Source: Microcaldota archaeon (GTDB lineage: Archaea > Micrarchaeota > Micrarchaeia > Micrarchaeales > Micrarchaeaceae). Taken from it: 55,853 bases of DNA. The translations under genes were made by a program, and so were the position numbers. The stretch spans positions 5,742 to 61,594 of the forward strand of contig JAJYUR010000001.1 of assembly GCA_021792395.1 (NCBI GenBank), given 5' to 3'. Under the pieces are notes generated by a model. The model had not been told where the DNA came from. It saw only the letters and a program-made list of their open reading frames with translations, and made no database searches. The first letter of the stretch is position 1, and each line of letters begins with the position of its first letter. Below are positions 41,048 to 55,853 of this stretch, one piece after another.

Positions 41048-43405
41048 TTATACCCTTATGTCATCAGGGTTGTCTACGTTTATGAGCCTTATCATTCCAG
41101 CAGATATATAGAGTTTCAACTGCTCCACATCTGGGGAGACATTGCTGTAAAGCGAATCCTTGAATTCTTCCAATCGGTCTTCGTTAATGAATGCGATGTA
41201 GGTTATGGAATTTGAATATACCGGTATGTTCTTGAATCGGCTCGTAGGCGAGAATATAACGATGTATATCTTTTCCCCATGCGACGCTATAGTCATGTCT
41301 GCCACGGTGCTCGAATCAAGATCGCTGAATATCAGTGCATGCGAAACGAAATAAAGCCTCAGTTTCTTGAAAACAGCGAGGTACTCTATATCATGCTTGC
41401 TCGCGTCTATCCATGCCTTAGGCGCGTATAGGTCATCTATCGATGCCAATTCATTTTTTTCAACCAGCTGGCTCAGTATGACATCCACATTATTATATGT
41501 AAGGTTAATCGGCATATTGTTCTTCCTAAGATTCGTTGCAATCGCCATCCTCACCTCGTTTTTTGAGAGGGGCATATACTTCCAATGATAATATGAGTTG
41601 AGCTTGTCAAAGACGCCTATTACTTCGTTGGGCTTTAGCTTTATCGGTATCTTATCCTGCCTTGGCAGATTAGGCACGTCTATATAAAATTCGTCCCTGT
41701 TCGGCGCCCTCACCAGCGTAACCATCATCAATACTATTATTGCAACTACCGCAAGCTCTATGTATTGGCTGCTTATTTTTATGGCGGTCGATGGGCGCAC
41801 AAATACGTATGTAAAGTTCTTTGAAAGCATTGATATTGAGAATGTAGCATTGCCGTTTATCTTTGGCGATCCCGATGGCAGCGCATAATACAGCGTACCG
41901 TTGCTTATCACGCCCGAACTTTTGTATAGCCCATTTACTGATATTGAATAGTTCACGCCAGATATGGGCATGCCACCAGATGAGACGGCTATCCTATATA
42001 CGTTTGACGAAAAGTTTGCATTTGACATGGAAAGTTTTACGCTAGGCACTTGAAAAAGCGCCGCCGCATACTGCATATTTGAGAAGCTTTCCAGCCTTGC
42101 AATGTATTTCCCAGGGGGAAGCTGCAGTGTCAGGTATTTTAAAAAGGTGAAGTTGCCATATGCTGAAAAGAATTGCAGAGGCAGTGTCTCAATCATGCTC
42201 ATGTTGGCAGTATATATACTGAGATGCGGCTGTATGCTTATAGGTATAGACGACCTTGTAAATACTTCAAGCGTAGCCGGAGTAGACTGGCCAGGAATGA
42301 TATCCGAAGGAATCGATATTGACCCGTTTATGGAATAATCAGGAACATACAGATAATACTTGTATATGCTAGCATTGGTAAGATTATACGTCATATTGTT
42401 GTATAATGCAACACGCAGGTAACCTGAATTGAGCTTAGGCAACGACGTTGAATTGTACGCAAATTCTGTTTTATTCAATATTATGCCTATGTTTCCTGAT
42501 CTTTTTTGGTAATAGCCAACAGGTATTAACTGAGTGTCAGAAGCATATTTAGGTATCCAAAATTCCTGGGCGGCTGCCTTCGCTATGTCGCTGCCAGCTT
42601 CTGCCGGGCTTCTCCATGAATTAAGATAGTTTGAAAATGCTATTATTGAACCGTTGAAAATGTTTGCGTAAGAAGCAGTGCCGTATGTTCCCCCTGAAGT
42701 GAAACCAAATGTGGCATTGCTAAAATAAAACGTGCTTGTTTTAGGAAGCGATGTTGAAAAGGTAGAGAGGAATGGAAGGTTGTTCGAATTTGGTACAACA
42801 ACACCGCCCGGAAGAACAAGTCTTGAAAAGCTCTGTCCGACATAGATTATGCTTGTGCCGCGATTCAGCAAGTACTGCAGTATTGTTTCATTTGTGCCGT
42901 TTATGTACTCAAACATGTAAGATGGCATTAGTCCGTTGATTATTATGAGCAGCGAGTCATTATTTATTGATTGCAGGTCAGACTTTGAGAGTACTCCTAT
43001 CGATGACTCTGAATTTACTACGCCGTAAGATACTAGATCGTTTTCTATTGCGCTGGCTGCGGCAAACGAATTACCACAGTTGAAGCAGTCATTTGAATAA
43101 TTCAGCATATACACATTAGAGGGCGGCAGGGACGCTAGCAGCGATACGTTTAAAATCGCATATGGGACATTTGCAGCGTCGTAGAAGAGCAGCGAATACG
43201 GGAATACTGAGCTGTTCTGGTTATAGAATAGCATGTTCTGGGATATCATAGATGAATATAGGGCAGTAGTCACATTATGCTCGGCAGGAATAGGTGAAGG
43301 GCTTGATGATATATGGCGCAGCATAACTGCAAGATATCCGAATATTCCGATTAGCACTATGACCATTATCAGTGCCAATGCCAATATTTTTTTGAAGTTG
43401 ACCAC
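41048..43405 (-). CDS. Large membrane protein: N-terminal TM, extracellular region, second TM, soluble cytoplasmic C-term
   Basis: 785 aa; Asn/Ser-rich ectodomain; TM at YIELAVVAIIVLMMVTLVRAP; terminal gene of the T4SS-like block. GTG start. Confidence 0.7.
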   Translation of the reverse strand: MVNFKKILALALIMVIVLIGIFGYLAVMLRHISSSPSPIPAEHNVTTALYSSMISQNMLFYNQNSSVFPYSLLFYDAANVPYAILNVSLLASLPPSNVYMLNYSNDCFNCGNSFAAASAIENDLVSYGVVNSESSIGVLSKSDLQSINNDSLLIIINGLMPSYMFEYINGTNETILQYLLNRGTSIIYVGQSFSRLVLPGGVVVPNSNNLPFLSTFSTSLPKTSTFYFSNATFGFTSGGTYGTASYANIFNGSIIAFSNYLNSWRSPAEAGSDIAKAAAQEFWIPKYASDTQLIPVGYYQKRSGNIGIILNKTEFAYNSTSLPKLNSGYLRVALYNNMTYNLTNASIYKYYLYVPDYSINGSISIPSDIIPGQSTPATLEVFTRSSIPISIQPHLSIYTANMSMIETLPLQFFSAYGNFTFLKYLTLQLPPGKYIARLESFSNMQYAAALFQVPSVKLSMSNANFSSNVYRIAVSSGGMPISGVNYSISVNGLYKSSGVISNGTLYYALPSGSPKINGNATFSISMLSKNFTYVFVRPSTAIKISSQYIELAVVAIIVLMMVTLVRAPNRDEFYIDVPNLPRQDKIPIKLKPNEVIGVFDKLNSYYHWKYMPLSKNEVRMAIATNLRKNNMPINLTYNNVDVILSQLVEKNELASIDDLYAPKAWIDASKHDIEYLAVFKKLRLYFVSHALIFSDLDSSTVADMTIASHGEKIYIVIFSPTSRFKNIPVYSNSITYIAFINEDRLEEFKDSLYSNVSPDVEQLKLYISAGMIRLINVDNPDDIRV

Positions 43406-43420
43406 TTACAGTGCACCGCA

Positions 43421-43555
43421 TCAATCTTTGTTTTTCCCGGCAAATACCCTGGCAAATAGCTTGGTCAGCATGTTCTGCCCGCCTCTGACATGCTTTAGCA
43501 CGGTATATATGCGGATGTATTTTACTCTCTTGTTTATTCTCACATTGTATATCAT
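43421..43555 (-). CDS. Possible small basic protein (44 aa)
   Basis: Manual translation MIYNVRINKRVKYIRIYTVLKHVRGGQNMLTKLFARVFAGKNKD; starts 4 nt after the stop of the upstream gene. Confidence 0.4.
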   Translation of the reverse strand: MIYNVRINKRVKYIRIYTVLKHVRGGQNMLTKLFARVFAGKNKD

Positions 43556-43559
43556 GCAG

Positions 43560-44288
43560 CTAACCCTTAAGCTCTATATAACTCATGGAAACCATCTTGT
43601 TCAGCATCTGCTCGACTCTAGGTATGGTTATTCTGTAGGTCTTTGCGAACTCAGCCAGGTCTATTGTATTGTTATGGGAATCTATCCATTCCTCAATCAT
43701 GACCATAAGGGATTCGTCGGAATACGTCTCAAGCTGCTTTAGCCTCTCTGTAAGTTCGTTATTCTGCGCACTGAGCTCCGTAGCTTGGGCAGTAAGGTTC
43801 TTGTTTGACGATGCAAGCTCTATGTTCAGCCTCTTGAGCTCCCTGTATTCATTGAATAATGAATCATAATTATTGAATAGCGCACTGTAGCTTTGCGATA
43901 GCGAGCCCATCAATTCATCTATCGATGAGTCTACATATTGGTATAATGACACGGGGTCAGGGGAGTAAAGGTCAGCCACAAGCGACAATACAGATAGTAG
44001 GTTCTTGACAACGTAGATGCGCCTCATCTTTTCGCTCGTGTCCAACGCTATTGAGTATTTGACTTCTATTGAGCCTGCATTAAATGTTATTATAAAGAAT
44101 AGGAATGGATTCTTTTGTATGTCCCTGCTTTCCACAGTAAGCAATACGAGGCTGTCGGGATTTATTTTTATGGAGAACATCTGCAGCGTGGAGAACCTGT
44201 TTGCCATTGCGGAAAAATCCCCCAGCAACGTCCCTTTTATGGAAAATTCTGAAATCTTTGGTTCTACAGTTCCTACATTTTCAACCAT
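43560..44288 (-). CDS. Coiled-coil protein with C-terminal winged-helix-like segment
   Basis: 242 aa; YRELKRLNIELASSNKNLTAQATELSAQNNELTERLKQLE coiled coil; IDLAEFAKTYRITIPRVEQMLNKMVSMSYIELKG. Confidence 0.65.
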   Translation of the reverse strand: MVENVGTVEPKISEFSIKGTLLGDFSAMANRFSTLQMFSIKINPDSLVLLTVESRDIQKNPFLFFIITFNAGSIEVKYSIALDTSEKMRRIYVVKNLLSVLSLVADLYSPDPVSLYQYVDSSIDELMGSLSQSYSALFNNYDSLFNEYRELKRLNIELASSNKNLTAQATELSAQNNELTERLKQLETYSDESLMVMIEEWIDSHNNTIDLAEFAKTYRITIPRVEQMLNKMVSMSYIELKG

Positions 44289-44370
44289 TTTATCACAATT
44301 GCAGACATGCGCGTTCCAATGCGCATAGCATATTTATTAGGGCAGTTAATTATAAAAGCGTTGAACTGTG

Positions 44371-44757
44371 CTACTTGGCCGCAGCATCGTATTCATGGGG
44401 CAGAGCAAGTGGGGGCATATAGCTCAGCAAAGACATGAAATACAAGAACAGCGTTATTATGACGCCTACGAATATGCCCGTCAGGTTTCCCCGCGAGGTT
44501 ATGGCCAGCATTACAGTAAATATTATTCCAAGCGCGACATACCCGACCTGCTTTCTGATGAAAGATGAGCGCGCCTTGTAGTATTTTTTATAATCGTCTT
44601 TGCAAACCACTAGGGTATAATGCTTCTCGTTTTTGGTCACGTTGCGCTTGAACCATCTTATGCTGTTTATGATATAATCTGCCTTAACAGGTATGCCATT
44701 CTTCTCCTGCCCGCATAGGATGCACCTATAATCTTTGTTCATGTATGCCACTCTCAA
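44371..44757 (-). CDS. Small protein with N-terminal CxxC zinc-ribbon-like motif and two C-terminal TMs
   Basis: 128 aa; CILCGQEKNGIP ... VVCKDD; TM pair. ATGA overlap with upstream gene. Confidence 0.65.
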   Translation of the reverse strand: MRVAYMNKDYRCILCGQEKNGIPVKADYIINSIRWFKRNVTKNEKHYTLVVCKDDYKKYYKARSSFIRKQVGYVALGIIFTVMLAITSRGNLTGIFVGVIITLFLYFMSLLSYMPPLALPHEYDAAAK

Positions 44758-45068
44758 TCGAAGTCTATGATCGCTTCGTATATGCGCCCTGATTCCGATG
44801 CCAGTTTCTGCTCGTCCGCCATGTTGAGAGAGTTGTTTATACTTACATCATCCATCCCGAGCCTCCTTAATATGTTTGATATTGTAGACTTTTGTATGTC
44901 TGATTTCTCAAGCAGGGATATAAACGTGACTATATTTATGTGCCTGTGCGCCTTCTCCATGTCGGAGAACAGCCTTTCCACGTTCTTCTCGTCGACCTTG
45001 TATGCTATCAGTATGCGCCTTAATTCAGGCCTCGTTATTGAATATGATCCGATGTTTTTAGCTGCCAT
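44754..45068 (-). CDS. Small soluble helical protein of T4SS-like block
   Basis: 104 aa ORF tightly packed between ATPase and zinc/TM genes. Confidence 0.6.
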   Translation of the reverse strand: MAAKNIGSYSITRPELRRILIAYKVDEKNVERLFSDMEKAHRHINIVTFISLLEKSDIQKSTISNILRRLGMDDVSINNSLNMADEQKLASESGRIYEAIIDFD

Positions 45069-45069
45069 T

Positions 45070-46584
45070 TCAACTACCTGACGCGGATATTATCCTGGCT
45101 ATCAGTGTGTCCTCTATGCTTATGCTTTTCAGGAACGTTACCAGGTCATTGTTGTTCACTCCGTTCTCTTTCATCAACCTTATAAAATCAAGCATTTTCA
45201 TCGAGCGCTTCTGTGCATCGAGCTGGGCGAATATTGCATTTATTACCTCTGAGGTCACGTTATATTCTATGAACTTGTTCTTTAGTTCATCGCCTTCGAA
45301 TTGGTAGTCGCGCTGCATTATGCCTGCTGAAAGCTCGCTCTGAGTCAGTATATCAGCCATATCCAACGTATATACATAAAGCGGCTCCTCACCTTTGATG
45401 CGCCCGAGTATGAATATCTCTGGAAAATGCTGCGCAGTCTGGAACGCCATATTCACAGCTGCCTGGCCTACCCCGAACTTGCTTATCTCAGACCTTATGA
45501 ACTCGGAGAAGTTCATAGACCCCTGCAGGTAATTCATGAATTTCTCGAACTTTATCCTGAGCATGAACGTGGTGCCCACGTTAGAGAATATAGCCTCGTT
45601 TATATCAGTGGGGTTCTGCGATGCGACTATCAGGCCGAATTGGTATTTTCTTCCTTCCCTGACTATCATTATGGCGTCGCTCTTCTCGTCGCTTGCCACC
45701 TTCCACGCCTCATCCAGCACTACCATCGTCTTTATGCCTTTCGATTCGCTCCAACCCTCTACGCGCATCCTCTCCTTTAGGGTCTGCAATATGAAAAGGG
45801 CTGCAAGGGCGCGGAACCTTTCGTCAGGCAATCCTGACAGGTCTATGTCCACCATTCCTGATTCTGCAATCTTTGACAGGTTCAGTGTGCTTTTCCTGGC
45901 AAAATAGTCCTCGCCTTCGCGCGCAAACTGCCTCAGCCTGTATATTGCATTTTCCAGTTCTGCAGGATATTCATATGTGCCTTCCTGGAGATGCTCCTCG
46001 AGAAGAGATATGGCGTCTTTTATGGTAGGCGCATCTACGTTGTCCGGGGCGCGCTCGGAAAGATTGAACCCCCCGTTGACATACGCCTGTTCAAGTGCTT
46101 CTTCCGTCAGCCTTTTCTGCTCCGGATACATACCTATGTCGGTCAGTATGTCAAATGCAGTGAGTATCTGCTTGACCCTGTCCAATGGCTTCATGCCTGA
46201 AAGGTCCATGATGTTTATGTAGTCTCCCTTGCCGAGCGATACTATGGTGCCACCGCTCTGCTTTACCCATGCCTTGTATTCAGCAGCCCAATCTATTATA
46301 ACCGCATTGGTGCCCCAGACGTAGTTGGCTCGTATCAGAAACGTTTTTACGAAATAGCTTTTGCCTGCGCCTGTTATTCCGACAACAGCTATGTGCGGGT
46401 TTGTGACATTGGCGAATGTCCAGCTGAAAGGCACCTTGAATATCTTCGTATTGCCTATGTATATGCCTTGGAAAGGATCGTTTATCAGCACATTTGACGG
46501 AGGCTCGGGAGGCCTAGAAAGGAAGGCCCTCTTTGCGATCTCGTTGCTCATTATGTGCTGTAATTTCAACAATGTCATATTCAA
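45070..46584 (-). CDS. VirB4/TraC/HerA-type conjugation ATPase
   Basis: 504 aa; VVGITGAGKSYFVKTFLI (Walker A), TMVVLDEAWKVA (Walker B), IVASQNPTDINEAIFSNVGTTFMLRI. Confidence 0.92.
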   Translation of the reverse strand: MNMTLLKLQHIMSNEIAKRAFLSRPPEPPSNVLINDPFQGIYIGNTKIFKVPFSWTFANVTNPHIAVVGITGAGKSYFVKTFLIRANYVWGTNAVIIDWAAEYKAWVKQSGGTIVSLGKGDYINIMDLSGMKPLDRVKQILTAFDILTDIGMYPEQKRLTEEALEQAYVNGGFNLSERAPDNVDAPTIKDAISLLEEHLQEGTYEYPAELENAIYRLRQFAREGEDYFARKSTLNLSKIAESGMVDIDLSGLPDERFRALAALFILQTLKERMRVEGWSESKGIKTMVVLDEAWKVASDEKSDAIMIVREGRKYQFGLIVASQNPTDINEAIFSNVGTTFMLRIKFEKFMNYLQGSMNFSEFIRSEISKFGVGQAAVNMAFQTAQHFPEIFILGRIKGEEPLYVYTLDMADILTQSELSAGIMQRDYQFEGDELKNKFIEYNVTSEVINAIFAQLDAQKRSMKMLDFIRLMKENGVNNNDLVTFLKSISIEDTLIARIISASGS

Positions 46585-46619: not shown

Positions 46620-47450
46620 TCAACTCTGCTGATTGAACTGCGAAGCTTCTTCTGCAAACGATACTGGCAATGCGAAATTAAACTGGAACAGCGTGTAAAG
46701 TTCCCTGCCTACTATCCTTCGCAACTCAAGGTCAAATGCGCTGAATGATACCTGCAGCCGCTTCACCTGCTCTTCCAATGCATCAAACGCAGCTTTCTCG
46801 CTGACACCTATTGCCGTGGTTTCTATATACATAAGCGTAGCTATTGGCTTTTCGCCTTTTGAGATGCGATCTATCTTTGCCTGCACAACATTCATCTTCC
46901 TCTGTATGTCGGTTATAGTGACCTCGTTGGCATTGCCCTGCAGCGCGCGGGACATCTCGAATTCCTGGTAGGAACGCTTGCCTTCGAGTTCATCCCTTAC
47001 GGTCTGTATGTCCATGCCTGACGATATCACATGAAACTTGTATGGGAAGTCGATGTTCATCACAAGACGCTCATATGATTCAGGGGCGAGAATCAGGCGC
47101 TCCTCATCCTCTTCCGGGGCGCTCTCCTCCTTGAATAGGTAGCCAAATATGTTTGCCGTTATATATCCGGTGGCATAGAAGAGCCCGCTTACATTTTTCA
47201 CCACTGCATCCTGCTTCTTAGTTATATAATAATTATTGGCTGGCTGGAATGTGATGCCAAGCATCGATGTAATCCCTGGTATTATGATGGAATCTGCCCA
47301 GTTTAAGGCAAGTATCATCACTACGCCGAAAACCAGTATAAGCACGGCAATGATGGAGTAGAACCCTTTGCCGAATGACGACAGCATGGAAAACGCTATG
47401 AGCATTAGCATAAGCGAAAATATCAGAAATATTGCTCCTTCTTCATCCAT
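46620..47450 (-). CDS. TM-hairpin membrane protein of T4SS-like block
   Basis: 276 aa; two or three N-terminal TMs then soluble alpha/beta region. Confidence 0.65.
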   Translation of the reverse strand: MDEEGAIFLIFSLMLMLIAFSMLSSFGKGFYSIIAVLILVFGVVMILALNWADSIIIPGITSMLGITFQPANNYYITKKQDAVVKNVSGLFYATGYITANIFGYLFKEESAPEEDEERLILAPESYERLVMNIDFPYKFHVISSGMDIQTVRDELEGKRSYQEFEMSRALQGNANEVTITDIQRKMNVVQAKIDRISKGEKPIATLMYIETTAIGVSEKAAFDALEEQVKRLQVSFSAFDLELRRIVGRELYTLFQFNFALPVSFAEEASQFNQQS

Positions 47451-48286
47451 TATATGACCTCTTCCTCAAGATTCTTATTTATCTGCTCCGTAACTGTAGA
47501 GAAGGGTATTAGCGAATCCGGCTCTATGAACTTTTTAAGCTGCATGCCGGTTATTATGCTAGGTGTAATCCCGAATATAGAGCCTATGCCTGACATCAGC
47601 TCCCTTGCCTTTTGCTGGGCTACGCTGACAGCCTCGTATTCCTTGCTGCCTATGCCTGACACCGATGCATAGCTTATAAGCTCAAATGAGAGATCCTTGC
47701 TTATGCTATCCAGAAGGTTCCTCCACATTGCAGTCTTGCCCTTCACCCTTTCAATGGCATCCTTCGATGCATCGGGTTTCTGCTCCAGTTCGGCTTCCTC
47801 ATTTTCTGATAAATTTATAGCATCACGCAATTGCTGTATGTATGAATCCTTGTTCATGACATACATCTGGCTTGTAAACCTGACAGGATCGCGCGCTATC
47901 CCTACAAGCCTGCTCACCTGCCTTGAAAATTCGAGCTTCTGCTCGTCTGGCATCTCAGTAGCTGATAGATACAGAGGTATAGATATGTAGACCGTTGCAA
48001 TGTAATCCTCCTTGCTCCTGTGCAGTATCGAATCGGCAGAAGTAGCCATCCAATATGCGTCCTCCTTGCTTAGTATTATGTGCCTGCTCCTCTGCTTGAA
48101 TATAGGCACCAGCAGATAAGCATAGTATCGCGATGAGAATGCAAGTATGTCTACCATCACCGCCAGGAGAAGCAGTATGAGCTTTCCGAAATATGGCATT
48201 ATAGATACAGGAAGTGCGATGCTTATGATGAGAAGTATTGCAGATATCATAAGGAGCCCAAGGAAATTAATGATTTTATTAGCCAT
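47450..48286 (-). CDS. TM-hairpin membrane protein, possible PrgI/VirB3 + VirB4-N-like module
   Basis: 278 aa; two N-terminal TMs, then soluble region with SRQVSRLVGIARDPVRFTSQMYVM and GITPSIITGMQLKKFIEPDSLIPFSTVTEQIN. Confidence 0.6.
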   Translation of the reverse strand: MANKIINFLGLLMISAILLIISIALPVSIMPYFGKLILLLLAVMVDILAFSSRYYAYLLVPIFKQRSRHIILSKEDAYWMATSADSILHRSKEDYIATVYISIPLYLSATEMPDEQKLEFSRQVSRLVGIARDPVRFTSQMYVMNKDSYIQQLRDAINLSENEEAELEQKPDASKDAIERVKGKTAMWRNLLDSISKDLSFELISYASVSGIGSKEYEAVSVAQQKARELMSGIGSIFGITPSIITGMQLKKFIEPDSLIPFSTVTEQINKNLEEEVI

Positions 48287-48344: not shown

Positions 48345-49535
48345 CTATATGAATCCTCCCCTTATCCTTCCGCCCATCTGCGCAGCTCCGCCGATAAAGT
48401 TGGCAACTTGCACTACGAATGCGTATGTGACAGAAATTATCAATGCAGGATAGAACAATATCAGGAGCCAAAAGCTCTGCATCGACGTATTTATTTCGCT
48501 AAGGACCCCTATGGCAGGGTTTGACGGATTGATTGAGCTGAGCTGCACGCTGGATGTATTGAACCTGTTTAGCAGCAGCGATTCCGCGCTGAGCTGCGAC
48601 ATCAATTGAGGTGCAGTGAAGTAATACGCCACTGAAAACATTATAGGCATGACGAAGTAGAACCCCAATGCAAGCGCTATCATCATCCCTCCCAATGCCC
48701 TTGTTGGTATCATCACCCTGAAGATGACCCCAGGTATCAGGAATACAGGGATAGCTGCCACAGCAAAAAACAGTATCAGGTAGTATTCCGCATAGAGCGC
48801 GAAAATGCCGTCGGCAATGTAGGATGCCAGCACCTGCGCAGGCTCCATGAATAAGAGGAATATTATTTCCTGGGCGCTTTCAATCAGGCTCGTAAGGACC
48901 TTAGTATTTGTGACTGGCGTCGTTATTGATACGCTTATGCTTTTTATGAACGCGTCTGTCATGTAGACGTTGAAGAGCGATGTATAAATATTTTCAGCGG
49001 AGCTTATCGTGCTCGTTATGAGGTGCAGGGATGTCGCAAATGGATTTATAGGACCCACGAATACGGCAGGCACAATGCCGAACATGACCGCGCTTATGTA
49101 CACAAAAAGGCCTATTATCAGCGCGCTTGCAAGGACTTCGTATATTTCGCCGATTCCGAAATTCCTCATCTTTTGGTTTCTCAATGCTGTGCCCACCATG
49201 AATATCATGGATGCGATGAAGAAAGCCAGCAGCAGCACTATAAGAGCCAGGGGCAGATAGTTTAACCACGCGCTGTATACCTGCTCGTTTATGGGGCAGT
49301 ACCATGATTCATTCTTCTCTATGCTATTGGACAGGGCTGACGGCACCAGCGCACATTGCGAGGAGACTGTCGGCGGTGTTGAAGCGCCTCCACCTCCGCC
49401 AGGAATCCTCAATAATACCGGAGTTATAGCGTGCGCTGCAGTTGAAGCATTAGCCGCATGCACCAGCACAATCACCAGCATGGCTGCAGCTGCAAATAAA
49501 AGCACGTTCCTCGCTATTTTTTTTATGCGGATCAT
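48345..49535 (-). CDS. VirB6-like polytopic membrane protein, paralog 1
   Basis: 396 aa; signal-like N-term; shared motif GVIFRVMIPTRALGGMMIALALGFYFVMPIMFSVAYYF. Confidence 0.7.
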   Translation of the reverse strand: MIRIKKIARNVLLFAAAAMLVIVLVHAANASTAAHAITPVLLRIPGGGGGASTPPTVSSQCALVPSALSNSIEKNESWYCPINEQVYSAWLNYLPLALIVLLLAFFIASMIFMVGTALRNQKMRNFGIGEIYEVLASALIIGLFVYISAVMFGIVPAVFVGPINPFATSLHLITSTISSAENIYTSLFNVYMTDAFIKSISVSITTPVTNTKVLTSLIESAQEIIFLLFMEPAQVLASYIADGIFALYAEYYLILFFAVAAIPVFLIPGVIFRVMIPTRALGGMMIALALGFYFVMPIMFSVAYYFTAPQLMSQLSAESLLLNRFNTSSVQLSSINPSNPAIGVLSEINTSMQSFWLLILFYPALIISVTYAFVVQVANFIGGAAQMGGRIRGGFI

Positions 49536-49542
49536 GCGAACA

Positions 49543-52074
49543 CTATATCATTCCGCCCATCATGGACATGAAGTTTATCCTTTCTCCTATTGCTTTTGAA
49601 AAGTCAGCTATAAAAGCGTCTAATATTATGAAATTTATAAAAGGCACGAATGTGAGCCCTGCGACCAGGTAGCCTATGCCCTCTATCATAGGCAGCAGCA
49701 ACGAATAAATTACCTCGCCTGTTGCTGCCCCTGGCGTTATGGATCCCATCAGTAGCGTCGTTAAATTGCCTGATGAGAGCAGGGATAGAAAACCTTGGGA
49801 CTGCATCTGGACATTTATAAAGCCGTATGTTATGCTTGTAAGCAGTGGAAACACTATGCCGAGCCCTAGACCCAATGCTATCAGAATGCCCCCGAACGAC
49901 CTTGTAAATCCCAATACCCTTATCAGCAATCCTATGCTGATAAATACCACTAGGAAAAAGAATGACCCCGATATCAGTATCAGTTGTATGTTGTTTAGCA
50001 TGAGCATGAACAGTATCGCGGAAAATGCTACTGAAAGCCCAGCTTCCAGGCTTTTCGGGAATATGGATTCTATGCCTGCGCTGACCGAGATGCCCATCTG
50101 TCCTGGAACGTGTGCAACGACCTTGATGCCTGGAAGGAATCCGATCACGTATCCCAAATAAAATAAACTGCCAAAATAGCTGAATGCAGTGTTGCTGAAT
50201 GTGCCAACATCGCAAGCCGACATGTTGAAAAGTGTATTTATATCTGTAGCGGAGCAGGTGCTGGGCACCAAGCCTGCGCTGCTGTATGCTGCCTGCGGGT
50301 TCATGAAGAACACGCCTATTACAGATATGAATGCTATGAACAGCACCACTGAAAAGACCGCTTCGTATATCTGGATGCGCGCCCAGTTCTTTGCATTAGA
50401 GCTGCTTATGACGCTCGCAAGCATATATACTATGGCTGCTATCAGTATCACTATAAGCGTGAATATGAATGCAATGGAGAGCCATGTCTCCGGAGCCCCC
50501 AAAAGGCTCTGGTATGCTTTAGGGAGCACGTTTATTGACGCCTCTGCAGATGTGGCAGAGAGCGGAGGGGATGCGCTGTCGGTCACCTTTACGCTATAAT
50601 AGTACAGCCCGAAGGATGTGGAAGACGAAGTGACAAATATGTATTCCGAAGATTCCGCTCCAGTTATGGGAATTTGCGACCCGGAGGTATCGTTGTACCA
50701 TTGGTATGTGTATGGCGGCGTGCCTCCAGTTGCCGATGCTTTGAGCGTTACGCTGCTCCCTTGTGAAATCGCGGTTCCAGATGGCGCTATCGTAGGTGTT
50801 GGAAGTCCATTGACTGTTATAGATATAGGTTTTGAAGTTGATGTAACCGGCGATGATGCAGAATCGGCTACGACTACGTAATAACTGAAGGTGCCCTTAC
50901 CGTTTGCAGTTTCGGTGTATGTCGAAGATGACGATATTTGAATGGGTATATCAGTACCGCTTGTAGAATTATACCATTCATATGTGTATGGCGGCGTGCC
51001 TCCAGATACTGAAGCCGCAAGCGTTATTGTCTGTCCATCATCATATGCCGTGCTTGAAGAGGATATGCTTGGAGAGGATAGGACAGGATTTACGGTTATG
51101 TGCGACGGCCCGATATCCGTTGTCTGGCCCAAGCTGTCAGTCACACTGGCGCAATAGTATGCCGATGCTGCCGGCGATACATATATTGAATTTGCAGTAG
51201 TTGATATGCCCGAATAGGATGCAATAACATTTGTATCGGATGAGCAGCTGGATGATGTACCTGAATAATATGTTATTTCATAATCTGGGATTCCGCCGCC
51301 CCACGATGCCTGCAGTTCTGCGTTTTGGCCTGCATCCAACGTAGCTTTAGACGGCGAAAGAGTTCCAGATATGCTGCTGGCTACGGTATACTGACCTGTG
51401 GAAGACTGTGCGGTTTTGCCTGAGCCGTCTGTCGCTTTAACGTAATAGGAGAACGTGCCTGTAGCAGACGCAGTTGCAGAATATGTTGATGCGGTCTGCC
51501 CAGAAATGGCTGCCGGCGTTCCGGTTGTGTCGTTGTACCATTGATAACTATATGGCGGATTGCCGTTAGAGACGGATGCAGCTATCGATATAGTTTGGCC
51601 TATGCTATATGTATCGGATGTCGGGGATATAGATACGGAAAATGAAGGAGGTGGAGGTGGTGGAGGGGTTGATGTGCAGAACGATTTACCTCCTTTTTGA
51701 ATTCTTCCATTGCTGCCTACGCTACATATCACTATAGTGGAAGCTTCAGGGCAACTGGATGGACATGAACCTACGCATTCGGTAGTGCCGCATTCTGAAA
51801 CAACGCTTCCGCAGCCGCATGTAGGAAGAAACGCAACATCACTTAGATTGCGCATCGCGCTGCCTGTATCATAATTTGAATAGCTTGCCGATACAGATGA
51901 TCTGGCGAAATTAGGAAGGGCGAAGGCGGGATGATAGGTTAATGGAGTTGAGCCTGCCTGAATGGGTGCATGCGAAAGATATGACATATGCAGTATGGAG
52001 AATAGCATAAACAGTAGGAACAGCGCCGCACTGGCAGACTTTTTCATATTCTTTGCGTTCTTTCTTGTTAACAT
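49543..52074 (-). CDS. Surface protein: Cys-rich segment, four Ig/PKD-like repeats, VirB6-like membrane domain (paralog 2)
   Basis: 843 aa; PPPPPPP linker; repeats with GGTPPYTYQWYN; membrane motif GLLIRVLGFTRSFGGILIALGLGLGIVFPLLTSITYGF. Confidence 0.75.
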   Translation of the reverse strand: MLTRKNAKNMKKSASAALFLLFMLFSILHMSYLSHAPIQAGSTPLTYHPAFALPNFARSSVSASYSNYDTGSAMRNLSDVAFLPTCGCGSVVSECGTTECVGSCPSSCPEASTIVICSVGSNGRIQKGGKSFCTSTPPPPPPPSFSVSISPTSDTYSIGQTISIAASVSNGNPPYSYQWYNDTTGTPAAISGQTASTYSATASATGTFSYYVKATDGSGKTAQSSTGQYTVASSISGTLSPSKATLDAGQNAELQASWGGGIPDYEITYYSGTSSSCSSDTNVIASYSGISTTANSIYVSPAASAYYCASVTDSLGQTTDIGPSHITVNPVLSSPSISSSSTAYDDGQTITLAASVSGGTPPYTYEWYNSTSGTDIPIQISSSSTYTETANGKGTFSYYVVVADSASSPVTSTSKPISITVNGLPTPTIAPSGTAISQGSSVTLKASATGGTPPYTYQWYNDTSGSQIPITGAESSEYIFVTSSSTSFGLYYYSVKVTDSASPPLSATSAEASINVLPKAYQSLLGAPETWLSIAFIFTLIVILIAAIVYMLASVISSSNAKNWARIQIYEAVFSVVLFIAFISVIGVFFMNPQAAYSSAGLVPSTCSATDINTLFNMSACDVGTFSNTAFSYFGSLFYLGYVIGFLPGIKVVAHVPGQMGISVSAGIESIFPKSLEAGLSVAFSAILFMLMLNNIQLILISGSFFFLVVFISIGLLIRVLGFTRSFGGILIALGLGLGIVFPLLTSITYGFINVQMQSQGFLSLLSSGNLTTLLMGSITPGAATGEVIYSLLLPMIEGIGYLVAGLTFVPFINFIILDAFIADFSKAIGERINFMSMMGGMI
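50527..51645 (-). repeat. Four tandem Ig/PKD-like domain repeats within the 843-aa protein
   Basis: (S/G)NGNPPYSYQWYND, GGGIPDYEITYYS, GGTPPYTYEWYNS, GGTPPYTYQWYND at ~90-aa spacing; matching DNA tatgtgtatggcggcgtgcctccag at two copies. Confidence 0.8.
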
Positions 52075-52078
52075 GTTT

Positions 52079-53179
52079 TCACACGACCTTGTTCAGCATC
52101 CTACTCGACGTAAGGCTCGACGCGCCAAGGAAGCTGCCTATAGTTTCACTGAAGTCGAATGCGATTATAAGCGATATCGCCACAGCAACCAATGTGAATA
52201 TGGCTGGCGTTATTATATACTCTATGAAATTACTAAGTATCTGCGCCGGAAGTATATCGACAATACTTGCAAAAGTGGATAGGGAGTTCAAAGGATTCAA
52301 TGAAAACGCGGCGCTGCCACCTGACATGATTGCACTTAAAGAGCTAGTGACGCCTGCCGATGTAGATGTTGGGATTGCAACCATATTGGCAGCCAGCAAG
52401 AAGTGCAGGAGCAATGGAAATAGTATGTAGAAGCTTATGAATAGCCCAAGGAACGAGCCGCCCGCCGCCCTCGTCCACGGCATTGTCCTAAGTACTATGC
52501 CTATGAAGAAGAATAGCGGAAAGACCCCATATATTACATAAAGCACGACAATCATCCCAACCATCAGGCCTATGAATCCAGTGCCTACGTTAATTACGAA
52601 TGTTAACACTCTTGATATCACACTAAGGCCGGAGAAGGGGCTTACGCCGAAACCGAAAAAGTTTGGCTCTATTTTTATGTTTATAGATGCAACTAGAGAA
52701 ATGACCTCCTGCTGTACGCCGAAAATTATCAGTGGGCCTACCAGATTCAATGAACTTGCATAAAGCCCTTCACATGCCGAAGAGAACGTCTGCGAGCTTA
52801 TTGGATGATTTGCAGCAGGGAAGAACGCGCTTGGCCCTGATATAGTATTGGAAACAGAAAACGTGCCCAGGAATATGAGCACTATAAGCAATGTTACTGC
52901 TATCTCGCCTATCTCTACTCGGCTGAACCTTGCAAGCTTGTCCAGTTTGAAGGCGTATGACAACGCATATGTTATGCCGGTTATTATGAACATTGTCAGT
53001 ATTATCAGCAGCGCTATGCTTATCATTGCGCCTCCGCCGTCAAAATTTGCAGATACTTGAGAATTGAACGTGCATACAGGCACTGTAGATGCCCCTGCAG
53101 GCGCTGCAAGCTGCAAGAACACCAGTGCTGCAGCTATCAACAAGATGGCCTTGCCTCTTATGATTCTAGCATGCATCAT
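52079..53179 (-). CDS. VirB6-like polytopic membrane protein, paralog 3
   Basis: 366 aa; GIVLRTMPWTRAAGGSFLGLFISFYILFPLLLHF. Confidence 0.7.
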   Translation of the reverse strand: MMHARIIRGKAILLIAAALVFLQLAAPAGASTVPVCTFNSQVSANFDGGGAMISIALLIILTMFIITGITYALSYAFKLDKLARFSRVEIGEIAVTLLIVLIFLGTFSVSNTISGPSAFFPAANHPISSQTFSSACEGLYASSLNLVGPLIIFGVQQEVISLVASINIKIEPNFFGFGVSPFSGLSVISRVLTFVINVGTGFIGLMVGMIVVLYVIYGVFPLFFFIGIVLRTMPWTRAAGGSFLGLFISFYILFPLLLHFLLAANMVAIPTSTSAGVTSSLSAIMSGGSAAFSLNPLNSLSTFASIVDILPAQILSNFIEYIITPAIFTLVAVAISLIIAFDFSETIGSFLGASSLTSSRMLNKVV

Positions 53180-54654
53180 ACCAACCTCGAAAGACCTGCT
53201 AATTGCGTGTCACCGCCCAGCAGTCCGGAAAGTCCTATTATGCCCGTAAGGACTATCAGTATATTAATTATGGGCAGAAAGTATGCCGATACCGATATAA
53301 CGCCGTATTCATCCATGAGAGTGTAAAGGGTATCTGCTGCCGCAGCTGGCGAACAGTATGACGGCAGATAGAATGATTTTATTGGATCGGTTGATATCAC
53401 AGATGATGCAGCGACATTAATCATTGAGGCTATGCTGCTGAACGGTATGAACAGGTAGGCTATGTCCTCAGCTTCAGCCTGTATTAAATTTCCACCTGCA
53501 GGCCAGCATCCGTACGCCTTGCCTGCATATTTTATTTGAGGCATGTCGTAGAAATTGACCACATAGGGATCATAGCTCGATGATATCGAATTGTAAACAG
53601 ATGAAGGGATATATGTTGTGTTCTCGCTTAGCAGCGAATTAAAGCCGTATGCTGACGCTATGCTTATGGTAGAGCTCGAGCTTGCGGTAAGCGCGGAACC
53701 TATGCCGTTGCCTAACGATAGGTATTCTATTGCAAAAACGGACGGATAAAACAGTATAACGCCTATGGCTATAGCTATGAAAAGCCCCCCTATCTTGCGC
53801 GTGAATACAGTCGCCCTGAATATGATGCCTATGAACAGCAGGTATGGCCATACGTAAATGAACATGGCAATGAAATTGAGCTGGACTATGAATGATTCAA
53901 ACGCAAGGTTGAGCACTGAGCCCAATGCTGCAAGCGTCTTGTATATCATGCTTATTCCGCTGTATGGGGTGAAAGAAACGGTGAGAAAGAATAGATTAGG
54001 CAATGGAATAGGACCCAAGCACTGCACAAAATCAGGGTTGCCGCAGTACCTTATCGTTGGAGACACTGTTTCCAGGAATCCGAGGAATGCATCGTATACG
54101 AAGAAGCTGTTCATGTTGTTTGCGGTCTGGTTAGTCATGTTTGCTACTATTACTCCTGACGCCGCCAGGGGATAGTCGACCATCTCCGTCAAAGATGAAG
54201 GGGAGTTTACAAGGCTGCACAGTCCAGGGAAAGCAGCTGAAGATGAACTGCTCTGGACCAACAGCGATGCGGAATGCGAAGTCACCGAATGCGAAGGATT
54301 CAGTATGCCCAGCTGCGAATGTGCAGCTATGCTGTTGCACAGCGAGTATATGGATGAGCTGCTCATGAGCGACGTTGAATTCAGCCCGTTGTAGAATATG
54401 ACGCCGAAGGTTGTTATGACGAATATGATTATGCTTATCAGGACTATAGTGCCGACGAACTGGTAGAATTCGTTCTTTGCCGCTTCCCTTGCACCTGGGT
54501 TCTGCAGCAGTGTGGCAGCCATATACCAAACACCTATTATCACAGAATCGAAAAGCAGGGCCATGAATGCCAAAGGTATCAGGTCTGACTTCACGTTGCT
54601 GAAGGACGGCAACTGAAGTATTATTCTCCCAATGCTCAATATGTCAAACATCAT
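53176..54654 (-). CDS. VirB6-like polytopic membrane protein, paralog 4
   Basis: GIIFRATVFTRKIGGLFIAIAIGVILFYPSVFAIEYL; start moved from 54738 to ATG at 54654 (MMFDILSIG), after a GAGGT ribosome-binding-like site, removing overlap with the upstream gene. Confidence 0.7.
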   Translation of the reverse strand: MMFDILSIGRIILQLPSFSNVKSDLIPLAFMALLFDSVIIGVWYMAATLLQNPGAREAAKNEFYQFVGTIVLISIIIFVITTFGVIFYNGLNSTSLMSSSSIYSLCNSIAAHSQLGILNPSHSVTSHSASLLVQSSSSSAAFPGLCSLVNSPSSLTEMVDYPLAASGVIVANMTNQTANNMNSFFVYDAFLGFLETVSPTIRYCGNPDFVQCLGPIPLPNLFFLTVSFTPYSGISMIYKTLAALGSVLNLAFESFIVQLNFIAMFIYVWPYLLFIGIIFRATVFTRKIGGLFIAIAIGVILFYPSVFAIEYLSLGNGIGSALTASSSSTISIASAYGFNSLLSENTTYIPSSVYNSISSSYDPYVVNFYDMPQIKYAGKAYGCWPAGGNLIQAEAEDIAYLFIPFSSIASMINVAASSVISTDPIKSFYLPSYCSPAAAADTLYTLMDEYGVISVSAYFLPIINILIVLTGIIGLSGLLGGDTQLAGLSRLV

Positions 54655-54661
54655 ACCAACC

Positions 54662-55804
54662 TCATATGCTGCCCCAGAATGACCCTGCGCCTTCCACGCC
54701 TGAATTGAGCCCTTTCGCCAGACCCATTGCGAACCCAATCGTTACCGTTATGTCTATGCCGAACATGAATATTGCAGTGAATATGAATTGCGATATCTCA
54801 GTTATCGAAGATTGTGCGCTGCTTATCACGTATGATGGGTCGAACTGCGCGCCCAAATCGCTGAAATACGTACTGCCTATGAGTGAGCTTATTGCCGGAG
54901 TAGTAATGCCATCGAACGTTACGCCTTGGCTCGATACCGAATTGAAGAAGGATGATGGCAGATTGTTCAGCGAATATGCAGTGCTTATACAGCCTGTACA
55001 TCCGTACAGAGGATTGTTTCCGCTGAATATCCAGTGTATCGCATATGCATTGAAGGCTATCATCAGCGGATATACAAGATATGCTGCAATGGCTATCGCC
55101 AGGAATGCATTGGCGGTCGTGCGCAGTCCAGAACCGGTAAGCGATATCGAGCGCAGGACTAGCGCTATGGGCAATACGACTACAAAAGCTGTAAATTCTA
55201 TGAGCGGCAGCGATATGTACTGCAGGAATAATGCACCGATAGCCATTATGGTGAATGGCGCAAATAGATCAAAATATACATCCGAAAGGCTGCCATACGC
55301 GGCACCGAAATCCTGCCCGATGACAATGTCTACGCCCACGACCGATGCATTGCCAAGATGGGCCAATGGAGATACTTCTCCGATGTCAGTAAGCACCCTG
55401 GCGTCTATAGCATACGTCACTGATGTGCTGTATATGTTACCGAGGAGCTTAAGCCCTGTATTCATTGCCAGATTCCCTATGTAGAAATCAGCATACTGGA
55501 ATGGCGACAGGGACGTACCAACAAGCGTTTGGCTTAGCGAAGATGTTATATTGCACGTAAGCTGCGACATCCCCAAGAGTATCAGTATTATGACTATGCT
55601 GAGCATCAGCTGGGTCATGTCCACCTTCAATAGGCTAGACACCTTCGATTTTGTTGCGCCAGGGAAGAACCTGCTGAGCATGTACAGGAATGCAAGGATA
55701 GAAAATGATGCAGCTATGACCAGGTAGTTTATGCTGAGCCAGCTATTTACGTATGTCGACCCGCCAAACAATGCGCACCCGTTTATGATCAAAACAAACA
55801 CCAA
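54662..55804 (-). CDS. VirB6-like polytopic membrane protein, divergent paralog 5
   Basis: 380 aa; LVLRSISLTGSGLRTTANAFLAIAIAAYLVYPLMIAFNAY. Confidence 0.65.
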   Translation of the reverse strand: MVFVLIINGCALFGGSTYVNSWLSINYLVIAASFSILAFLYMLSRFFPGATKSKVSSLLKVDMTQLMLSIVIILILLGMSQLTCNITSSLSQTLVGTSLSPFQYADFYIGNLAMNTGLKLLGNIYSTSVTYAIDARVLTDIGEVSPLAHLGNASVVGVDIVIGQDFGAAYGSLSDVYFDLFAPFTIMAIGALFLQYISLPLIEFTAFVVVLPIALVLRSISLTGSGLRTTANAFLAIAIAAYLVYPLMIAFNAYAIHWIFSGNNPLYGCTGCISTAYSLNNLPSSFFNSVSSQGVTFDGITTPAISSLIGSTYFSDLGAQFDPSYVISSAQSSITEISQFIFTAIFMFGIDITVTIGFAMGLAKGLNSGVEGAGSFWGSI

Positions 55805-55853
55805 TCATTTGCTATATTATTCATGCAACTTTAAATTTACCTATTCCAAGGCG

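Follow-up and report, generated by a model that had tools for sequence, protein, structure and literature searches.

Organization of the operon and architecture of gene D

The window, that is, the whole stretch of 55,853 nucleotides that was analysed, belongs to contig C14 of a 0.83-Mb genome and carries on its minus strand, to which all the window coordinates given below for genes and domains refer, an operon with the order P2 and P1 (pilins), Y, Z, A, B, C, D, E, F, G, H, I, J, K and L. Six CedA/VirB6-like paralogues stand in tandem in this operon, which runs past the end of the window; Z, the sixth paralogue, was located together with Y and the two pilins at L008:3771-7293. Genes A (54662..55804; 380 aa) and B (53176..54654; 492 aa) were recognised as paralogues by profile comparison, as was C (52079..53179; 366 aa), which also matches Ced_CedA below the cut-off, and E (48345..49535; 396 aa) by hhalign with controls. 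Between A and Z there is a gap of 100 N with an exact 108-nt repeat on either side (window 55746-55853; L008:3488-3803), and for this reason the gap looks like an unmerged assembly overlap. Downstream of E, synteny and hhalign identified two operon membrane proteins, F (47450..48286) and G (46620..47450), which are homologous to each other (97.1%) and gave no significant Pfam or NCBIfam match. They are followed by gene H (45070..46584), encoding an ATPase of the HerA/VirB4 clade, and by genes I, J, K and L (41048..45068), assigned by synteny to the downstream part of the operon. The 785-aa protein encoded at 41048-43405 had no Pfam match.

Gene D (49543..52074; 843 aa) was classified by Pfam and profile comparison as a CedA/VirB6-like pore subunit with an N-terminal surface ectodomain. 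The earlier note had described in this ORF a signal-like N-terminus, a Cys-dense stretch, a poly-Pro linker and four repeats, and all of them were located in the sequence. From the N-terminus, the protein has a signal-like or anchor segment (aa 1-36; 51967..52074) whose hydrophobic part lies at about aa 16-33 in the hydropathy profile, the Cys-rich stretch (aa 86-133; 51676..51819), the poly-Pro linker (aa 137-143; 51646..51666), repeat 1 (aa 143-232; 51379..51648), repeat 2 (aa 233-328; 51091..51378), repeat 3 (aa 329-423; 50806..51090), repeat 4 (aa 424-517; 50524..50805) and the membrane domain (aa 527-843; 49543..50496). The locus nearest to gene D was L041, with 82% identity. An assembly chimera was rejected as unlikely because another genome of the genus has the same fused ORF (838 aa, 82-83% identical). 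Both genomes of the genus that carry this arm have four Ig repeats, and the search for D in a further one, G002 (74% complete), gave no match.

Membrane domain, Ced/T4SS-like machine and conservation across the order

The earlier note had also claimed that the membrane domain of D is the same as that of its neighbours. Comparison of the profiles of the six families Z, A, B, C, D and E (28-35 sequences each) gave hhalign probabilities of 95.9-99.7% against each other (98.3% for D against C), whereas the controls, consisting of four other operon membrane families (Y, F, G and L) and of reversed profiles, reached at most 2.3 and 2.0%, respectively, and this bears out the claim. Gene C matched the NCBIfam model Ced_CedA (NF041796) with an E-value of 5.3e-4 and 19.6 bits, under the curated cut-off of 330, and gene D itself gave no match to this model. 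Over 41 genomes the model had no match above the cut-off and 19 genomes with matches at E <= 0.1; it does detect the controls Sulfolobus acidocaldarius and Bacillus subtilis. Through its homology to the CedA-matching paralogue C, D can be placed as a putative member of the CedA/VirB6 superfamily.

The six pore paralogues have a common predicted plan, with a signal or anchor segment (absent in A), an exoplasmic N-terminal segment, a helix, a short basic loop, a helix, a large exoplasmic loop, a helix, a short loop with the motif R..TR..GG, a helix, a second exoplasmic loop, a helix and a cytoplasmic C-terminus. The hydropathy and charge profile of D agrees with an N-out, C-in orientation, a five-helix core and a large second exoplasmic loop, all of this being a hydropathy-based prediction, and its N-terminus would lie outside the cell as read only from hydropathy. 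In 35 aligned orthologues the Cys pair C607/C621, which sits in the first large exoplasmic loop of D, is invariant, and the R..TR..GG motif falls in a cytoplasmic loop. The AlphaFold model of the membrane domain had a pLDDT of 43.8, and the sequence search of this domain against the PDB gave no match.

With respect to the remaining components, the nearest NCBIfam models of gene H were CedD (7.6e-20), CedB (9.1e-19) and VirB4_plasma (4.8e-17), all under their equivalog cut-offs, and the Pfam families DUF87 and AAA_10 were above gathering; we take the product of H as a VirB4/CedB-like ATPase. When the operon pilins were compared with Pfam TrbC, 13 of 20 members matched at E <= 0.1 (best 9.7e-8), and P1 of this genome gave 0.02, below the cut-off; no PDB pilin match was obtained for them. 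We regard them as putative VirB2-like pilins. Among the pore families, the profile of the pilins is similar to the N-terminal half of A (76%), of Z (51%) and of C (31%), and shows no resemblance to B (0.2%), D (7.8%) or E (1.4%); a relation of the same kind has been reported between CedA and CedA1 (PMC9905601). Pilin P2 (L008:6670-7293; 207 aa) contains a linker rich in Ser and Thr and, at its C-terminus, a Cys module. The two hallmarks of a conjugative T4SS of a mobile element were searched for by their Pfam models, and neither the PF03432 relaxase (0 of 31 genomes) nor the PF02534 coupling protein (in this genome, the one examined) was found. On account of the pore homology, the VirB2-like pilins, the ATPase nearest to CedD and CedB and this absence of relaxase and coupling protein, the machine appears to be most like Ced, that is, a chromosomal Ced/type IV secretion-like system scoring below the curated cut-offs. 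A defence system was also considered and discarded, as the PADLOC matches (HerA, DndH and mad8) fell on the ATPase, with nothing for D or C, and were taken to reflect the HerA-type ATPase clade in general. Contig C41 of the same genome has another Ced-like cluster, of minimal size (L009:7285-14543). Besides a HerA-like ATPase and a larger P-loop protein, it encodes a CedA-like protein of 338 aa devoid of ectodomain.

At E <= 1e-10, the profile of the D membrane domain matched 181 of the 245 genomes of the phylum. All the matches with E < 1e-56 belonged to the order of this archaeon (families f1 and f2), the weaker ones being found in other families. We took 110 operon regions. Of these, 106 belong to the same order, and the remaining four (L214-L217), from another family, were excluded before counts. 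The D gene was obtained from 107 genomes of the order, including that of the window. The order Z-A-B-C-D-E was identical wherever the contigs reach, and F-G-H follow E in most loci of the order. In eight loci (L068, L145, L147, L148, L150, L165, L169 and L179) F was not found beside E though the contig continues, and in L068 this position is occupied by K and L in reversed order.

The Ig ectodomain and its distribution among machine subunits

The four repeats of D (about 90 aa each, aa 143-517) are 25-51% mutually identical. Several Pfam models were above gathering, namely Ig_3 (5.9e-17; 62.4 bits against a gathering threshold of 30), SprB (1.6e-13), Ig_7 (2.6e-11) and K319L-like PKD (2.9e-8). 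Since the plain PKD model scored only 0.076, the designation Ig/PKD-like given previously was kept in its Ig part and PKD was dropped as the main label. The AlphaFold model of the ectodomain (aa 41-524; mean pLDDT 66.9) showed beta-sandwiches for repeats 1, 3 and 4 (pLDDT about 70-92), the three that are also supported by Pfam, and a weak model for repeat 2 (about 50), which favours the folded repeats of the earlier description over disordered ones. The Cys stretch falls within the first 96 residues of the model, which were unresolved (pLDDT < 50). A Foldseek search of the ectodomain against the PDB gave 263 matches at E <= 0.001, with multi-Ig arrays such as Dscam and Robo1 on top (best E-value 1.1e-9) and the S-layer proteins 9g93 and 8cka among them.

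Selection was estimated by dN/dS between the two genomes of the genus, a single pair analysed by a simple counting method. The values were 0.11, 0.29, 0.24 and 0.05 for Ig repeats 1 to 4; the membrane domain gave 0.16 and the Cys stretch, whose alignment is gapped, 0.48. With values of 0.05 to 0.29, the Ig domains of D are under purifying selection, which is strongest beside the membrane, the far end changing fastest. The fast Cys stretch would fit a recognition tip and, equally well, a loose linker; its fold is of low confidence and phmmer detected no relative of it outside the genus, the sister genome giving the only match. Another contig of the same genome (C35) encodes a 984-aa pilin-like surface protein with DUF2341 and Ig_3 (L010:205-3159). 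Its Ig domain is 49% identical to repeat 1 of D, and this protein is a possible source of the Ig module of D.

The D-type arm is absent in 99 of the 107 D orthologues, in which the extension is below 90 aa, and in the present version it was found in the two genomes of this genus only. Since so many orthologues have none, the machine must work without it, and a role of the ectodomain as a core machine part was ruled out. Of the view of the earlier note, in which the transfer machine carries its own adhesin or target-recognition module, the analysis supports that D belongs to a transfer-type machine, the Ced/T4SS-like operon, and has an extracellular Ig ectodomain maintained by purifying selection. 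The module is specific to the genus, and elsewhere different modules sit on different subunits, including pilins.

A pore subunit was considered decorated when it was at least 90 aa above the median of its family, and a pilin when it was at least 60 aa above it. For the six pore families, subunits cut by a contig end were excluded from the counts per subunit, and some long pilins are cut at the locus edge. For Z of L079, E of L070 and of L075, and C of L083, the long N-termini were taken to be out-of-frame start artefacts and were trimmed before counting; likewise, the stop-to-stop lengths of D in G023 (495) and G017 (454) became 354 and 365, respectively, after start trimming. Decorated complete subunits amounted to 5/88 for Z, 3/91 for A, 5/95 for B, 4/102 for C, 8/107 for D and 10/104 for E, which is 35 of 587, in 28 genomes; another 19 of the 587, at +60 to +90 aa, count as neither decorated nor plain. 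Nine of 93 pilins were decorated at +60 aa and, with pilins counted, at least one decorated subunit was present in 34 of the 107 genomes, some of which have two or three together.

Concerning the nature of these additions, seven of the 35 decorated pore subunits matched the D Ig-repeat profile and 17 had a Cys-rich stretch, defined as six Cys within 60 aa; 21 had either of them and the other 14 elongated subunits had neither. Among the 533 plain subunits there was none with D-type Ig and one with a Cys stretch. The signal-like segment did not discriminate, being present in 35/35 decorated and 533/533 plain subunits. The locus L162, of the same family, has large Ig arms on A, C and D (818, 1045 and 887 aa), with Pfam Big_3_5 matches of 1.4e-30, 2.3e-9 and 1.5e-31, respectively, and an E protein of 1237 aa contains Ig_3. 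In the Pfam scan of 10 proteins, four were without any match at E <= 0.01. The Cys module is common to non-orthologous subunits, as that of E in L063 resembles those of A in L058 (about 1e-11) and D in L059 (2e-4), and the Cys module of pilin P2 of this genome weakly resembles that of D in L059, which belongs to another genus (1.5e-3). On the operon tree, the fewest changes were 4 for Z, 3 for A and 4 for each of B, C, D and E, giving at least 23 gains or losses of modules across the six pore families, on trees built from genes of the same operon in which 15 of 106 rows fill less than half of the columns and for which a 33-row bootstrap had not settled. When insertions of 35 aa or more were placed with MAFFT in the first 35 genomes, all 34 of them lay either in the exoplasmic segment at the N-terminus or in an exoplasmic loop, and none in a cytoplasmic loop; some of the 34 are inside the poorly aligned signal segment or where it ends. 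The large mid-protein insertions of B and C sit in the second exoplasmic loop.

Proposed role of the arm and comparison with known systems

On the computed basis of the fusion, the homology, the synteny, the purifying selection, the Ig fold and the recurrent acquisition of other modules by sister subunits, the explanation that we consider probable is that the arm of D, on the pore of a chromosomal T4SS/Ced-like machine, binds the surface of a partner cell and docks pore and pilus there. The absence of the arm in most orthologues, the low-confidence Cys stretch with its single match in the sister genome and the 14 elongated subunits with neither module speak against it. D would be one of six CedA/VirB6-like pore paralogues with its N-terminus outside the cell, and the arm, which follows the signal segment and precedes the first transmembrane helix, would present four Ig domains and a Cys-rich tip. 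This arm may bind the surface of the partner cell, and such binding would dock pore and pilus at the contact site ahead of transfer. Adhesion or target recognition by the ectodomain, as the earlier note had suggested, would be the best reading; in addition to adhesion, we infer a host as the partner, docking before transfer and DNA or protein as the substrate. The source archaeon is tiny and, by analogy with its relatives, probably host-dependent.

In related archaea the surface domains differ, as do the parts of the machine that bear them, and this suggests a swappable partner recognition. We propose, tentatively, that the order keeps a transfer machine with a six-subunit VirB6/CedA-like pore in which partner specificity would evolve through interchangeable surface modules on any subunit or pilin, in the manner of the tail-fibre domains that phages exchange, D being one such state.

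Ig arrays often serve as stalks, and the arm could instead anchor or space the machine in the envelope of its own cell, be it the glycan coat, the S-layer or other surface proteins, with no choice of partner. The membrane-proximal Ig4 is the most conserved repeat and S-layer proteins are among the Foldseek matches, in agreement with this alternative. However, relatives with similar envelopes should then carry the arm, yet most orthologues do not have it, and the modules are of several kinds and sit on different subunits, so that we hold such an anchoring role to be unlikely. Recognition of kin was judged quite improbable. In this case the machine would swap DNA within the species, as Ced does with Ups in Sulfolobales, and the nearest named models are indeed CedA, CedB and CedD, with relaxase and coupling protein missing from the genomes searched, as in Ced. 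Nevertheless, the wide retention of the machine in the tiny genomes of a reportedly host-dependent group suggests a use beyond repair among kin, and for the cultured relative Mia14, which has a Thermoplasmatales host, gene exchange with this host has been reported (PMC5498576). Finally, near-neutral accretion, by which abundant promiscuous surface domains would be pasted on exported N-termini and loops with no special role, is consistent with the low frequency of decoration, with the plentiful Ig domains in large ORFs of these genomes and with an exoplasmic placement that is partly expected because about 79% of the non-TM model positions are exoplasmic, but it is very improbable given the purifying selection on the Ig domains of D and the genomes in which two or three subunits are decorated.

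The proposed partner binding by the arm of D has several parallels, the closest being the nanohaloarchaeal giants that fuse Ig repeats to VirB4 and the extended VirB6 paralogues of Rickettsiales. The parts (Ig arms, VirB6-like pores and Ced-like machines) are already known. The nanohaloarchaeal SPEARE-type giants, which reach about 9,000 aa and combine about 75 Ig domains with a VirB4/TraG-like ATPase, are likewise from DPANN archaea and fuse tandem Ig repeats to a T4SS component, host binding having been proposed for them (PMC10266531). In that case the Ig array is fused to the ATPase, whereas D fuses four Ig domains to a VirB6/CedA-like pore subunit, and the modules of the Micrarchaeota machine switch subunit between lineages. 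The combination of Ig array, transmembrane segment and VirB4 ATPase in one polypeptide was not found here, as the ATPase H is a separate gene and D had no ATPase match. Ced of Sulfolobales and Ted of Thermoproteales share with this machine a CedA-like pore, a VirB2/CedA1-like pilin and a CedB/CedD-like ATPase, but they have one or two pore paralogues instead of six in tandem within about 15 genes, and in the present machine surface domains are borne by pore subunits and pilins and the scores are under curated cut-offs (PMC9905601, PMC11868833).

Host-associated Rickettsiales also have several tandem VirB6 paralogues with long surface-exposed extensions, and by analogy these may be compared with the arms described here, but they are C-terminal repeats of an outer-membrane bacterium, while those of the archaeon are mostly N-terminal Ig or Cys-rich arms (PMC7648143, PMC2653234). 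In Anaplasma the VirB6 extensions are surface-exposed (PMC7648143). Surface adhesive domains aid conjugative transfer in the case of PrgB and of the Ig-like protein RSP, which IncHI conjugation needs (PMC6764697), but both are separate proteins and not an arm fused to the pore as in D (PMC6764697, PMC10588982). In Patescibacteria, which are ultrasmall epibionts, T4SS are very common and virB6 is reportedly essential for growth in one epibiont; in contrast to D, Ig arms are not mentioned in the part of that work consulted (PMC12102498). The secretion section of the Mia14 paper does not mention this machine (PMC5498576).

An Ig arm on an archaeal VirB6/CedA-like pore subunit, within a six-paralogue machine with wandering modules, was not found in the literature searched, most subscription journals and bioRxiv preprints being outside its coverage. 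Nor was any description of a Ced/T4SS-like machine with a six-paralogue pore in Micrarchaeota found in it, with few subscription journals and no bioRxiv covered. The results extend Ced/T4SS-like machines to Micrarchaeota, with an unusual six-paralogue pore, and bear on host recognition and association in ultrasmall DPANN archaea. As the operon is conserved across the order and the arms are lineage-specific, the genome sequence itself points to candidate recognition domains, each of which can be tested singly.

In addition, VirB2-like pilin domains were observed inside very large surface proteins (573-849 aa or more) standing beside ordinary short pilins, at L110:6870-8933, L163:14660-17155, L167:1619-3652, L168:1445-3166, L171:15435-17984 and L174:2-2188. 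These proteins are possible tip adhesin-pilins.
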